Shown here piece after piece: positions 19,895-37,116 of a stretch of DNA of 37,116 nt; position 1 is the stretch's first letter, and each line of letters opens with the position of its first letter. This stretch comes from Nitrospirota bacterium (GTDB taxonomy: Bacteria; Nitrospirota; Nitrospiria; JACQCE01). Below the pieces are notes generated by a model. It was not told the DNA's origin. It did not search any database and saw only the letters and a list, made by a program, of their open reading frames with translations. The translations under genes were made by a program, and so were the position numbers. The stretch is taken from the NCBI GenBank assembly GCA_016201765.1, contig JACQCE010000001.1, positions 1 through 37,116 of the forward strand, in the 5' to 3' direction.

Positions 19895-21367
19895 ATGCGA
19901 CCTCGACTTGATCTCAGATTAGCCCAAAAACTGGTGATGACGCCGCAATTGCAGCAGGCGATCAAACTGCTGCAATTGACCCGCCTGGAATTGTCTCAAA
20001 CGATCAGCCAGGAGTTGTTGGAAAATCCGGTGCTTGAAGAGACGGCCGCCGAGTCGGCCGAGGAATCGGTTCCGGAGGCCGGGGAGCGGCGCGACGAACC
20101 GTCGGACGATGCCGGGTCCGCTTCGGGCGAGAACGACCGGGGGGAGGTGGCCGCCGAGCCCTTTGACTTGAACTGGGGGGGGGCCGCCGGAGATGACGGG
20201 TCGACGGAATGGCGTGAGAGCGAGTCCGCCGACACCGCGGTCGAGGAACGCCCCTCCTACGAGCAGACGCTGACCAAGGCGACGACGCTGCACGAACATC
20301 TGCTCTGGCAGCTCAGCGTCAGCGGCCTGGATGAGGCCGACAAGACGATCGGGACGCAGATCATCGGGAATATCGATGACGACGGGTATCTGAGAACCTC
20401 CATCGATGAACTGGGGGCCGAATGCGGGGCGCCGCCGGCTCAGGTTGAGCGGGTGTTGAAGATCGTTCACACGTTTGATCCCACCGGAGTGGGGGCCAGG
20501 AGCCTGCAGGAGTGTCTGTCGCTGCAGCTTGAAGCCCTGGGTGTGCTGGACGGCGTGGCGCACATCCTGGTCACGGACCACCTGGAGGAATTGGAACATC
20601 CGGATTACGCCGCCATTGCGGCCCACGTGGGCTGCTCCGTGGAGGAGGTGGCCCAGGCCGCCCGGGTCATCGAACGGTTGGAGCCCAAGCCGGGCCGGCC
20701 GTTTTCCTCCACCGACAATCAGGTGATCATTCCCGATGTCTTTATCATCAAGGTGGAGGGGGAGTCCGAGTATCGGATCATGATGAATGAGGACGGTCTG
20801 CCCCGGCTCAGGGTCAATGAGTATTATCGCCGCCTGCTGCGCCGGCCCGGCGAGCTGTCCAAATCGACCCGTTCCTATCTGGAGGACCGGTTCCGGGCGG
20901 CGTTGTGGCTCATCCGCAGCATTGAACAGCGCAACCGGACCATCTGCCGCGTGACGGCCTGCATCGTCAAATTTCAACGGGAGTTTCTGGACCGGGGACT
21001 GTCGGCGTTGAAGCCCCTGGTGTTGCGGCAGGTGGCGGAGGAACTCGGGTTGCATGAATCGACGATCAGCCGGGTGACCACGAACAAGTATGCGCAGACG
21101 CCGCAGGGATTGCTGGAATTGAAATTTTTCTTCAACGGCGGCATCGCGAGGACCGGCGACGGCGAGGAGGCCATGTCGCGGGTGATCGTCAAGGAGATGA
21201 TCCGCGGCATGATCCAGGCCGAGGACCCGGCCCATCCCCTTCGCGATGAGGAGATCACCGCGCGCCTGCGCGAGCGTCGCATCGACATCGCCCGCCGCAC
21301 CATCGCCAAATACCGCACGATGTTGAACATTCCCTCCGCCAGCAAACGAAGACGCGCGCCGTCGTGA
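19895..21367 (+). CDS. rpoN: RNA polymerase sigma-54 factor
   Basis: RpoN directs polymerase to -24/-12 promoters that need an AAA+ enhancer-binding activator. The 490-residue protein has the Gln-rich activator-interacting region I (MTPQLQQAIKLLQLTRLEL), an acidic region II around residues 55-105, and the core-binding region III. It also has a helix-turn-helix with LGLHESTISRVTTNKY and the RpoN box ARRTIAKYR near the C-terminus. A matching sigma-54 promoter occurs at 34461 in this window. The rapZ start overlaps its stop (GTGA). Confidence 0.98.
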   Translation: MRPRLDLRLAQKLVMTPQLQQAIKLLQLTRLELSQTISQELLENPVLEETAAESAEESVPEAGERRDEPSDDAGSASGENDRGEVAAEPFDLNWGGAAGDDGSTEWRESESADTAVEERPSYEQTLTKATTLHEHLLWQLSVSGLDEADKTIGTQIIGNIDDDGYLRTSIDELGAECGAPPAQVERVLKIVHTFDPTGVGARSLQECLSLQLEALGVLDGVAHILVTDHLEELEHPDYAAIAAHVGCSVEEVAQAARVIERLEPKPGRPFSSTDNQVIIPDVFIIKVEGESEYRIMMNEDGLPRLRVNEYYRRLLRRPGELSKSTRSYLEDRFRAALWLIRSIEQRNRTICRVTACIVKFQREFLDRGLSALKPLVLRQVAEELGLHESTISRVTTNKYAQTPQGLLELKFFFNGGIARTGDGEEAMSRVIVKEMIRGMIQAEDPAHPLRDEEITARLRERRIDIARRTIAKYRTMLNIPSASKRRRAPS

Positions 21368-32938: not shown

Positions 32939-33012
32939 GACCGGGTGCTGCGCTAGCTATCAGCTTTTGTTCTGTGCTATCTTTCCGCATTGAACCAACG
33001 TCGTCGCCACCC

Positions 33013-34254
33013 ATGCCGGCACACCTCAACCTGAAACAGCAGCTTCGCCGCAAGATCGGAGAGGTCGAACTGCTTCACCGGTTGAGCGAAACCGTCAGCA
33101 GCACGCTCGATCTGGATGCGATTCTCCGCCATCTGGCGGACATGGTGGCGGACGTGACCCGCGCGGACGCCTGCCTCCTCTATCTGCTGGACAGCGCGAA
33201 AGGGGAGCTGGTGCTCCGGGCGTCGAAAAACCGCCATCCGAAATTGATCGGCCGCATCACCCTGGAAATGGGAGAGGGCATCACCGGCTGGGTGGCCAAG
33301 GAGCGGACCCCCGTGAAGATCGCCCGTCATGCCAGCGACGACCCCAGGTTCAAGTTTTTTCACAACCTTCCCGAAGACCGGTATCAGGCCTTTTTGTCGA
33401 CGCCCATGATCCATCACGGGCGCGTGGTCGGCGTCATCAATGTCCAGCACAAGCGGCCGCACCAGCACACGCCCGATGAGGTGGCGCTGATCGAGACGAT
33501 CGCCCGCCACGCAGGCGCTGCGATCGAGAACGCCCGGTTGTTCGCCTCGATGAAGGAAAAGGCCAGGCAGGTTGAGATGCTCTCCCAGGTCAGCCAGACG
33601 ATCGCGTCAAACCGCTATCTCGAGGAAATTCTTCAACTGATCGTGACCATGACGGCGCAGGTGATGGGCTCCGCCATCTGCGCGATCATGCTGGTCGATG
33701 ACGACCGCCAGCAGCTGTCGATCAAGGCGACCCAGAGCCTCAGCGACGCCTATCGCAACAAGCCGCCGCTTCGCATCGGCGAGAGCATCAGCGGCCGGGC
33801 CGTCAAGGAGCGCCGGCCGCTTGCCGTCCTGGACGTGACCCGGGAGCCCGGCTACATGTATCCTGACGTCGCCAGGAAAGAGGGGCTGTGCTCGCTGCTC
33901 TCCGTGCCGATGATGATGAAGGATCGCGTCATTGGCGTCATCAACAGTTACACCTCCCAGCCGCATCCCTTTGCGCCCGAAGAGATTCAAGTTTTGTCGG
34001 CCGTGGCCAATCAGGCCGCCGTGGCGATCGAACATACCCGGCTGATGGAGCGTTCGCTCGCCATGCAGGAGGCCCTCGAGAGCCGCAAGCTGGTTGAGCG
34101 GGCCAAGGGGATGTTGATGCGCCAGCGGGGGATTTCTGAAGAGCTGGCGTTTCAATTGCTGCAGCGCCAGAGCATGAACAGCCGCAAGAGCATGCGAGAA
34201 GTCGCCGAGGCGGTTTTGCTGGCGACCTCATTACACGACTCCGACCGCCGCTAG
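33013..34254 (+). CDS. GAF-GAF-ANTAR putative transcription antiterminator
   Basis: ANTAR domains bind paired hairpins in nascent RNA and stop termination. The 413-residue protein from ATG 33013 has a short helix-rich start with HRLSETVSSTLDLDAIL. A first GAF domain spans roughly residues 22-165 and a second roughly 190-340 (SLLSVPMMMKDRVIGVINSY). A C-terminal ANTAR helix bundle lies around 350-405 (SRKLVERAKGMLMRQRGISEELAFQLLQ, in pieces). The track's start at 32902 lies inside the palindromic element. No kinase or receiver domain is present. The signal and RNA targets are unknown. Confidence 0.88.
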   Translation: MPAHLNLKQQLRRKIGEVELLHRLSETVSSTLDLDAILRHLADMVADVTRADACLLYLLDSAKGELVLRASKNRHPKLIGRITLEMGEGITGWVAKERTPVKIARHASDDPRFKFFHNLPEDRYQAFLSTPMIHHGRVVGVINVQHKRPHQHTPDEVALIETIARHAGAAIENARLFASMKEKARQVEMLSQVSQTIASNRYLEEILQLIVTMTAQVMGSAICAIMLVDDDRQQLSIKATQSLSDAYRNKPPLRIGESISGRAVKERRPLAVLDVTREPGYMYPDVARKEGLCSLLSVPMMMKDRVIGVINSYTSQPHPFAPEEIQVLSAVANQAAVAIEHTRLMERSLAMQEALESRKLVERAKGMLMRQRGISEELAFQLLQRQSMNSRKSMREVAEAVLLATSLHDSDRR

Positions 34255-34504
34255 TCCCCGCTCGTTTCCTCTTATTACATGTTCCCCCCCTTGTTGCGCC
34301 CTCCCCCCCGTATTGTGGGCACGGTCTGTGTACCCGCTTCCATAGCTGTGAAAATGGCTACCCCTTTTTAAATCTCCCACATCGCTGGTTGATGAGGGGT
34401 GAAATTACATAACTATTTGAGAATACATATTATTTCAATGATTGTTGCTGCGTCGCCGTCTGGCACTCAAGTTGCACCCCATTCAGGCAGAGGACAGAGA
34501 AACC
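34255..34504. other. Intergenic region before the minor-pilin operon
   Basis: This 250-nt gap has C-runs, a possible weak hairpin (GGGCAC...GTACCC, 34317-34335) and a T-run after GGCTACC (34353-34370) that might end the ANTAR transcript. It is then AT-rich up to the sigma-54 promoter at 34461. An enhancer for an NtrC-type activator would be expected in the AT-rich part, but no clear inverted repeat was recognised. Confidence 0.45.
34461..34476 (+). promoter_or_regulatory. Consensus sigma-54 (-24/-12) promoter for the minor-pilin operon
   Basis: TGGCAC (34461-34466), five bases and TTGCA (34472-34476) reproduce the sigma-54 consensus exactly, with ten bases between the invariant GG and GC. 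Initiation is predicted near 34487, about 18 nt before the fimT ATG, so the leader is very short and holds the GAGGA ribosome-binding site. rpoN itself is encoded at 19895-21367. Confidence 0.82.
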
Positions 34505-35053
34505 ATGAAACAACGACGATCGGATAAAAAGGGATTTACGCTCATGGAAGTTGCCATCACGGTTGGTATCGCGGCGGTGGTGACGGCCCTGGCGATTCCG
34601 ACCTTTCGCACCAGCTTCGCTCATTACAGTCTGACGGGAGCCGGCAGAAATCTTCTGGCCGACCTTCGGCTGGCCCAGGGACTGGCGGTCAAGGAAAATA
34701 CGGCTTATCAACTGTTTTTTGACCCGTTGAATTCCACGTATCAGATCGAGAAATGTCCGTGCAATCTGAACCCGGGCGGGGTGCATGGCACCGTGCAGCA
34801 AACCCAACGAGCGTTGAATGAATCGAACACCATCGGGCACGGCGCTCTCGATCTGGTTTCCGTTCAAGATACGTCGAGTGCAGATCGGCCGATCGTGCAA
34901 TTCGGCACCAATGGATTGGTGACCATTCCGACGACGGTGAATTTCCCTCTCACGGCCACGCTTCGGTCCAACGCCACCGGCGAGCAGATCCAGGTGAATG
35001 TCTGCCGGATGGGCAGGGTCTACGTGGTGTCGGCCGGCGATACGGGTTGTTGA
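34505..35053 (+). CDS. fimT: Minor pseudopilin FimT/GspH
   Basis: FimT/GspH proteins are minor pilins that help start pilus assembly. From ATG 34505 the product has 182 residues with a prepilin leader KKG before FTLMEVAITVGIA (cleavage after Gly10, Glu at +5) and a long N-terminal helix. A GspH-type globular part has NLLADLRLAQGLAVKENTAY, and two cysteines appear in EKCPC. The TTG start in the track lies upstream of the sigma-54 promoter and is unlikely. pilV follows within 3 nt. Confidence 0.92.
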   Translation: MKQRRSDKKGFTLMEVAITVGIAAVVTALAIPTFRTSFAHYSLTGAGRNLLADLRLAQGLAVKENTAYQLFFDPLNSTYQIEKCPCNLNPGGVHGTVQQTQRALNESNTIGHGALDLVSVQDTSSADRPIVQFGTNGLVTIPTTVNFPLTATLRSNATGEQIQVNVCRMGRVYVVSAGDTGC

Positions 35054-35055
35054 CG

Positions 35056-35538
35056 ATGAGGAATGAGATGAAGACGCAGGCGCACAGACAGAGACGAGGC
35101 CGGAACACCGGGATGGCCGGACAGGGAGGCTTCACGCTGCTGGAAGTGACGATCATGCTGCTGATCCTGGGGGCCGCCCTGGTCATGCTCTCCGGCGTGC
35201 AGACGACCTCCATCCGCAGTACCGGCATCGGATTCAGGCAATCGGTCGCCGTGTCGCTGATGGAACAACGGCTGGAGGAGCTGAGAGGCTTGACGTACAC
35301 CGACACGATCACCGACGCCGCGCTGACGGCTGGAGCTCATGCCGATGCCGATATCGTCATGCTCAATGGCGTCGATGTCACAGTGGTTCCCAATGCCCAC
35401 GGAATGACATATAGCCGGACCTACACCGTGGCGGACAATGACCCGACTGCGGACGTGAAACTCATCACCTATAACATGACCTGGAACGACGGCATCGCGC
35501 ACACGCTGACCATGGCCACCAGAGTGGGGAAAAACTGA
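35056..35538 (+). CDS. pilV: Type IV pilus minor pilin PilV
   Basis: PilV is a minor pilin of the priming complex. The 160-residue product from ATG 35056 carries a basic leader of 25 residues ending QGG before FTLLEVTIMLLILG (Glu at +5). It continues into the helical spine and the PilV pattern AVSLMEQRLEELRGL. A second ATG at 35068 has GAGGAA at short spacing and may be the true start. Spacing to fimT and to pilW (1 nt) supports one transcript. Confidence 0.9.
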   Translation: MRNEMKTQAHRQRRGRNTGMAGQGGFTLLEVTIMLLILGAALVMLSGVQTTSIRSTGIGFRQSVAVSLMEQRLEELRGLTYTDTITDAALTAGAHADADIVMLNGVDVTVVPNAHGMTYSRTYTVADNDPTADVKLITYNMTWNDGIAHTLTMATRVGKN

Positions 35539-35539
35539 G

Positions 35540-36379
35540 ATGGACCGCCGGGTCGAAACAGGCATGAGCCGCGCAGAGGGACGACGGGGGCTGACCCTGA
35601 TCGAAATGATGATCGCCCTGCTGTTGATGAGCTTTGTGATGATTTTCATTCAGGGCGTCTTTGTGACCCAGCGGAAAACGTACGTGGTGCAGGAGGACGT
35701 TTCTGACGCGCAGCAGGCGGTTCGGAACAGCCTGAGCCTGATCGAGCAGGACCTTCGATCGGCCGGTTATGGCATTCCTGCCGGATCGGGGACGCTGGCG
35801 ATTTCGGCCACGACGAACGGGAACCCCGATTCGCTCACCATGAACGTGGCGCAGGGTCCCACGACGTACCTGACGCTCACGCCCACCACGACCACGACCA
35901 TCACCGTGGCGGATGTCACCGGCTTTGCGGCGACCCAGTCCGTCACGATTCTGAACACCGTGTCACAGCAGGCGCTGGTGACGGGAACGATCGTCGCGGT
36001 CAATGCAGGCGCCAAGACACTTACGTTTGCCAATGGCACGATTCCCACGACCGTGAAACTGGGCGATCTGGTGGTCAGCAGCATCAATGTCATCAGCTAC
36101 AGTCTGGCTGGCACGAGCCTGACACGAACGGTCGACGCAACGCCGGAGGTGTTGACCAATCAAATCCAGAACCTGCAGTTTCGTTATGTCCTGGCCAACG
36201 GCACCGAGGTGGATGATCCCAGCGCATCGGGCGATCTGGCGAACATTCTCACTGTCCGGGTCACGCTGACGGCGCAGACGACCAGGCAGGCCTCAAGAGA
36301 CAGTTTCGGCAATCCCCTTGCCAGGCAATTGACCACCCTGGTCAGGGTGAAGAATCTGGCCATTCAAACCTCGACGTGA
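35540..36379 (+). CDS. pilW: Type IV pilus minor pilin PilW
   Basis: PilW is a large minor pilin joining the tip complex. The 279-residue protein has a leader RRG before LTLIEMMIALLLMSFVMIF, with Leu rather than Phe at +1 and Glu at +5. It continues with the PilW signature DAQQAVRNSLSLIEQDLRSAGYG. The rest is Thr/Val-rich beta structure with a TTTTTITVADVTGFAATQSVTI segment that may be a repeat-rich insertion. It lies 1 nt after pilV and 10 nt before pilX. Confidence 0.92.
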   Translation: MDRRVETGMSRAEGRRGLTLIEMMIALLLMSFVMIFIQGVFVTQRKTYVVQEDVSDAQQAVRNSLSLIEQDLRSAGYGIPAGSGTLAISATTNGNPDSLTMNVAQGPTTYLTLTPTTTTTITVADVTGFAATQSVTILNTVSQQALVTGTIVAVNAGAKTLTFANGTIPTTVKLGDLVVSSINVISYSLAGTSLTRTVDATPEVLTNQIQNLQFRYVLANGTEVDDPSASGDLANILTVRVTLTAQTTRQASRDSFGNPLARQLTTLVRVKNLAIQTST

Positions 36380-36389
36380 GGGAGCGGTT

Positions 36390-36890
36390 ATGACCACGCA
36401 CAGATCACGGAGACGACGGACGATGCCTGGGGTCTTGGGCCAGGAACGGGGCGCGGCCCTGGTCATGAGCCTCGTGATCATGCTGGTCCTGACCTTCCTG
36501 GGCATCATCGCCATGCTGACCTCCACGACGGAATTATCGCTCTCCGGCAATTATCGCCTGTCAAAGGAAGCCTACTACGCGGCCGACGGCGGGATGACCT
36601 ATGTCCTGAGGGACAAGCAATATTTTGCCCTGACCAATCCCACGACGCTGACCACGCCGAATTTCCCGGTCGGCGGCGTGGATTTGACGGTCAACGGGGC
36701 CTCGGCCAGCGGAACGGTGGAATTGCTGGCCTCCAACCAGGCAGCCCCGGATAATACGGGAAATGATGTGACGATCAACGGCCAGGTTCATGCAAATTAT
36801 TACAAGGTGACTTCACTGGGCAGTGGGAATCTCAACTCCCAGAGTCGTCAGATTGTGATCAAGGCGGAGCTGGTTCCCAGCGGGAACTAG
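36390..36890 (+). CDS. pilX: Type IV pilus assembly protein PilX
   Basis: PilX is a minor pilin needed with PilV, PilW and PilY1. The 166-residue product has an Arg-rich start, then the PilX N-terminal pattern GQERGAALVMSLVIMLVLTF. The ELSLSGNYRLSKEAYYAADGG segment that follows is diagnostic of PilX-type proteins. The C-terminal part is short and beta-rich, ending in QIVIKAEL. pilY1 starts 27 nt later. Confidence 0.92.
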   Translation: MTTHRSRRRRTMPGVLGQERGAALVMSLVIMLVLTFLGIIAMLTSTTELSLSGNYRLSKEAYYAADGGMTYVLRDKQYFALTNPTTLTTPNFPVGGVDLTVNGASASGTVELLASNQAAPDNTGNDVTINGQVHANYYKVTSLGSGNLNSQSRQIVIKAELVPSGN

Positions 36891-36917: not shown

Positions 36918-37116
36918 ATGGACAACCGGACACGGATGACGCGCATCGCGGCTCTTCTCCTTATGGCGGCCTGGCTGGCCTGGCCCGCCGTCGGCTCCGC
37001 AGACGACACCGAAATTTACGGATCGAGCAATGCCGAGATCAAGCCCAACGTGCTGATCATTTTCGACAACTCGGGCAGTATGAATGACACCATTCATACG
37101 GCGCATTATGACCCCG
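36918..37116 (+). CDS. pilY1: Type IV pilus tip adhesin PilY1, N-terminal part (cut by window end)
   Basis: Only about 66 codons are visible and the frame is open at the edge. AGGAGG precedes the ATG. The product starts with a signal peptide (MDNRTRMTR then a Leu/Ala/Trp core, cleavage near GSA-DD). It then shows NVLIIFDNSGSMND, the metal-binding DxSxS motif (residues 50-54) of a von Willebrand A domain as found at the N-terminus of PilY1. Position after pilX supports the call. PilY1 proteins are usually more than 1000 residues. Confidence 0.85.
   Translation, partial: MDNRTRMTRIAALLLMAAWLAWPAVGSADDTEIYGSSNAEIKPNVLIIFDNSGSMNDTIHTAHYDP

Follow-up and report, generated by a model that had tools for sequence, protein, structure and literature searches.

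A predicted sigma-54 enhancer-promoter unit upstream of the minor-pilin/PilY1 operon in Nitrospirota

The 250 nt preceding fimT in the genome of a Nitrospirota bacterium very likely form a sigma-54 enhancer-promoter unit, which would be read, together with IHF, by a response regulator encoded on another contig (C63). The draft genome comprises 121 contigs with 1.96 Mb in total, and the window, i.e. the whole stretch of 37,116 nt (37 kb) that was analysed, is contig 17. The kind of regulation is known; what is new is the predicted dedicated unit of palindrome, IHF site and promoter at a pilus-tip operon, kept across the phylum.

Results

The operon and its neighbourhood

The operon lies on the forward strand and begins with fimT (34505..35053), which encodes a GspH/FimT-type minor pilin (Pfam GspH, 26.3 bits; N_methyl, 23.6 bits). 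It is followed by a pilV-like minor-pilin gene (35059..35538), whose product possesses the prepilin motif GGFTLLEV, has no Pfam match and is 36-38% identical to that of the second gene in the operons of two relatives (L070 and L080). Next come a pilW-like minor-pilin gene (35540..36379; Pfam N_methyl; 40-45% identity to L070 and L080), a pilX-like one (36390..36890; PilX_N, 50.4 bits) and finally pilY1 (36918..37116), which is cut by the end of the contig after 66 codons. The truncated PilY1 has no Pfam match; over 61 aa it shares 59% identity with its counterpart in L070, a protein of 1045 aa. A series of minor pilins that bear prepilin motifs, with PilY1 after them, is the composition of a tip operon. 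The window also contains rpoN (19895..21367, forward strand; TIGR02395, 428 bits, cut-off 277), as a preliminary description of this DNA had stated.

The upstream neighbour of fimT (32962..34254, forward strand) encodes a protein with two GAF domains and an ANTAR domain (Pfam), a content on which it was rejected as a sigma-54 activator; it also lies outside the unit. Its best relatives are Nitrospira homologues (~63% identity), and further relatives occur in MAGs of Acidobacteria and Elusimicrobia. Most of the genomes holding these relatives, which were checked in order to reach other phyla, lack PilY1, and the evidence for conservation given below covers Nitrospirota. In the 250-nt gap between the two co-directional genes no terminator was found, and read-through from the GAF-ANTAR gene into fimT is possible. 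ANTAR domains bind RNA hairpins, and a protein encoded next to the operon might control it through RNA antitermination. We regard this as extremely improbable, since the predicted leader is just 18 nt long, the genes before fimT differ in the relatives read and the protein is not an AAA+ activator.

The -24/-12 site before fimT

The predicted promoter, TGGCACTCAAGTTGCA, occupies positions 34461..34476 of the forward strand and is recognised by direct reading, by scanning and by its retention before fimT in relatives. It reads T34461 GGCACTCAAGTTGCA A34476, with ten bases between the GG (34462-34463) and the GC (34474-34475) in a TGGCAC-N5-TTGC context, and 28 nt separate its end from the ATG of fimT at 34505. 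With the C of the GC set at -12, transcription would start at ~34487, leaving a predicted leader of ~18 nt (34487..34504, forward strand) with an SD-like AGAGGA at 34490-34495. The GG-N10-GC spacing, the ~28 nt to the start codon and the short leader all agree with the preliminary description, while its word 'perfect' was right for the spacing and slightly overstated otherwise, as TGGCAC is followed by T and not by the G of the usual sigma-54 consensus.

Within the window, TGGCACTCAAGTTGCA is the sole match without mismatch to TGGCACN5TTGCA, and when both strands are scanned for sigma-54 sites it alone scores at least 14. Its score, 17.3 of 19.5, comes from an approximate matrix modelled on the published consensus; when the 130 nt in front of fimT were dinucleotide-shuffled 5000 times, no shuffle reached it. 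Exact matches to TGGCACN5TTGC in the whole genome (7 in 1.96 Mb versus 3 for the reversed pattern) are too weak by themselves and were dropped as main evidence, so that position and conservation carry the argument.

Relatives from the class, taken to be Nitrospiria, and from the wider phylum were searched for PilY1 operons, and the DNA upstream of these was compared. The first gene of the fimT-pilV-pilW-pilX-pilY1 chain is preceded by a -24/-12 site in all 33 scored loci of the class, at a distance of 31-88 nt from its start. Shuffled upstream DNA contains such a site in 2.4% of cases, and none of the 61 second and third pilin genes has one at the same score, an internal control unaffected by the approximate nature of the matrix. 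Two more loci (L101 and L107), in which fimT was missed by the gene finder, have the site by eye and stand outside the 33, and L071, L074, L081, L089 and L109, which are incomplete or without a recognisable fimT chain, were left out of the counts. Over all 36 sites, the window included, G2, G3, A5, T13, G14 and C15 are invariant. Most loci with a readable operon in other classes of the phylum likewise possess the site, L219-L221 being among the exceptions. All relatives compared belong to families other than that of the window, whose FimT is at most 38% identical to its best matches in the class. Loss of the motif in close relatives had been named beforehand as a check on the proposal; throughout the class, the site is kept before fimT. 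Taken with its position, this conservation argues that TGGCACTCAAGTTGCA is not a chance match, and we infer that fimT transcription is sigma-54-dependent.

The clusters of four relatives (L073, L075, L077 and L079) contain, further upstream, another set of minor pilins, and its first gene has a -24/-12-like site with scores of 9.3-17.3; the palindrome TATGTAA-N4-TTACATA is not listed before this second set.

The upstream palindrome and the IHF-like site

When promoters are aligned on the GG, a palindrome becomes visible in 12 loci from outside the Nitrospiraceae: TATGTAA-N4-TTACATA, at a distance of 132-144 nt upstream of -24. A matrix trained on these 12 loci, with the window left out, has its best match in the window at 34327-34344 (TGTGTACCCGCTTCCATA; score 12.3, the next match scoring 6.1), which places it 134 nt before the -24 box. 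This predicted activator-binding site (UAS), recognised as sequence only, is position-matched and degenerate, the training loci scoring 21-30. In 328 kb of DNA from the same genome only two positions reach 12, namely the window copy and the C63 copy described below. TGTGTACCCGCTTCCATA has two mismatches to a loose consensus, and the genome holds just three places, this one included, with no more than two; a search allowing up to three gave 17 places versus 35 for the reversed control, and only matches with at most two mismatches, or scored ones, were used.

Three further copies in this genome (G000) lie near promoter-like sites: one has a sigma-54-like site 120 nt downstream, in front of a gene with an MshEN domain (C63:77826-77843, L269), one lies 119 nt from a -24/-12 site before an M23 peptidase gene (C42:41002-41019, L261) and one 91 nt from a -24/-12 site before the gene of a 115-aa protein (C60:8046-8063, L267). 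These genes are possibly additional targets of the same activator.

The strict combination of palindrome and promoter occurs in 11 of 197 genomes of the class, at one place each and always before fimT, and its reversed control in 1 of the 197. In other classes, the palindrome before minor-pilin operons is closer (~70-115 nt upstream) and often present in two copies, 20-23 bp apart. A loose short-gap composite searched over the phylum turned up a mixture of places and was set aside as evidence.

Between palindrome and promoter lies an IHF-like site, TCTCAAATAGTTA (34410..34422, minus strand), with one mismatch to WATCAANNNNTTR and 51 nt upstream of the -24 box. Its offset and orientation match those in most relatives outside the Nitrospiraceae, where such a site is found on the minus strand 50-53 nt upstream of -24. 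The window site is weak by itself, as 18% of shuffles hold a site with one mismatch; the exact site is position-locked and present in 10 of the 36 promoters versus 1% of shuffles. Palindrome and IHF-like site, in their fixed positions, independently support the reading of TGGCACTCAAGTTGCA as a sigma-54 promoter. Together with positional conservation, they also lend support to the earlier proposal that this promoter drives the fimT-pilVWX-pilY1 operon.

These results bear on the view that fimT is driven by a sigma-70 promoter or by read-through from the GAF-ANTAR gene, the -24/-12 site being incidental or secondary. A weak sigma-70-like match does exist (ATTACA-N18-TATTAT at 34404-34433; 9/12, with 0.3 expected), and the co-directional gap without a detected terminator would permit read-through. 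Yet the gene preceding fimT varies among relatives while the -24/-12 site stays, and the composite of palindrome and promoter is specific genome-wide, which makes this explanation distinctly improbable.

The Nitrospiraceae (L090-L108) carry a different palindrome, GACNAAAATTGTC, ~110 nt upstream of -24 in 17 of 19 fimT promoters (versus 1.4% in shuffles), and have an IHF-like consensus ~38 nt upstream of -24. A protein of ~600 aa encoded before fimT in this family was considered as an activator and rejected, being a PilB/GspE-type ATPase.

Candidate activators

No activator gene is seen in the window, as had been noted before, and the candidates lie on other contigs. The genome encodes, besides RpoN, 12 strong matches to sigma-54 activators. 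Contig C63 harbours genes for a prepilin peptidase, a histidine kinase, a 454-aa regulator, a 742-aa NifA-like activator and minor pilins. The 454-aa response-regulator sigma-54 activator (G000:C63:83814-85175, minus strand) adjoins the genes for the histidine kinase and prepilin peptidase and a second set of minor-pilin genes, and consists of a receiver, an AAA+ domain with a GAFTGA loop and a Fis-type HTH. It is 65-68% identical to regulators encoded beside minor-pilin/PilY1 clusters in five relatives. Orthologues were found in 31 of 35 sampled class genomes outside the Nitrospiraceae (58-69% identity) and in 17 of 19 sampled genomes of other classes (52-63%, the next best matches having 45-48%), and just one of 22 Nitrospiraceae genomes gave a match at the cut-off, at 49%. 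One genome of another class, G335, has the palindrome and no match to the regulator at the cut-off applied. The recognition helix, SYKTLLTKIK, hardly varies among the orthologues and is absent from the paralogues looked at; other regulators may nevertheless have helices like it.

Activator and palindrome thus change together in the Nitrospiraceae. It is chiefly on this correlation that we propose TATGTAA-N4-TTACATA to be read by the 454-aa regulator, the likely activator of the fimT operon. The genome contains a second pair of histidine kinase and sigma-54 activator, which is linked to pilC and resembles canonical PilSR (C100, L113). The sigma-54 promoter could be served by this PilSR pair, with its 480-aa regulator, or by the 742-aa NifA-like activator: both exist in the genome, the latter is part of the same C63 cluster as the 454-aa regulator, and pilA is under canonical PilR in other bacteria (PMC2725144, PMC6058289). 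Among the candidates, however, it is the 454-aa regulator that was traced through the families and found to follow the palindrome, and the clusters of L079 and L085 carry the palindrome with no activator of 742/750 aa seen in either. We therefore hold a different activator to be rather unlikely; the operon is probably controlled by the two-component pair on C63 and not by the pilC-linked, canonical-looking PilR.

Discussion

The sites, their positions and conservation and the genes for RpoN and an activator are directly seen, and the unit built from them would function as follows. RpoN polymerase would sit at 34461-34476, while a phosphorylated AAA+ response regulator, likely the 454-aa protein from C63, would bind the palindrome at 34327-34344. 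IHF would bend the AT-rich DNA at ~34410, and the activator would hydrolyse ATP to open the promoter. A transcript from ~34487 would then read fimT-pilV-pilW-pilX-pilY1, and the pilus-tip and priming complex would be made under signal gating.

For the Nitrospirota, we lean towards an ancestral sigma-54 circuit dedicated to the tip operon, which would consist of a single palindrome and a single activator and have, in many genomes, just one strict target; in Nitrospiraceae, activator and palindrome would have been replaced together while the promoter was kept. Besides priming pilus assembly, the minor pilins and PilY1 make up the adhesive tip; if this operon had signal-gated control of its own, a cell could time the making of pili and select their tip separately from the major pilin. 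Moreover, the palindrome points to a specific activator that is testable in cultivable Nitrospirota, including nitrifying Nitrospira, which matter for water treatment.

Control of major pilins by sigma-54 through PilSR is established (PMC2725144, PMC6058289, PMC6211767). PilS/PilR-RpoN at pilA of Geobacter (PMC2725144), Pseudomonas (PMC6058289) and Myxococcus (PMC6211767) likewise combines a two-component AAA+ activator, sigma-54 and a type IV pilus gene, but it acts there on the major pilin, whereas the target here is a minor-pilin/PilY1 operon and the pair proposed differs from the one linked to pilC. In a Pseudomonas pilR mutant, changes in minor pilins were judged to be indirect (PMC6058289). 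The same three-part logic is described for pilE of commensal Neisseria, with RpoN, IHF and the activator Npa (PMC6528607); pilE, however, is a major pilin and the lineage is unrelated. A survey from 2011 links sigma-54 with pili in general terms only (PMC3162934), a term search of a survey of sigma-54 regulons from 2025 gave no mention of Nitrospir- or PilY1 (PMC12316311), and no paper on sigma-54 control of pili in Nitrospira was found in the literature searched. The nearest precedent for a minor-pilin/PilY1 operon is HsfBA of Myxococcus xanthus, which we liken to the present case by its NtrC-like type and its targets. According to the respective paper, in which a term search gave no mention of sigma54, the NtrC-like HsfA directly binds the promoters of pilY1.1 and pilY1.3, and these target operons encode FimU, PilV, PilW, PilX and PilY1; HsfA also controls many other genes (PMC9109919).
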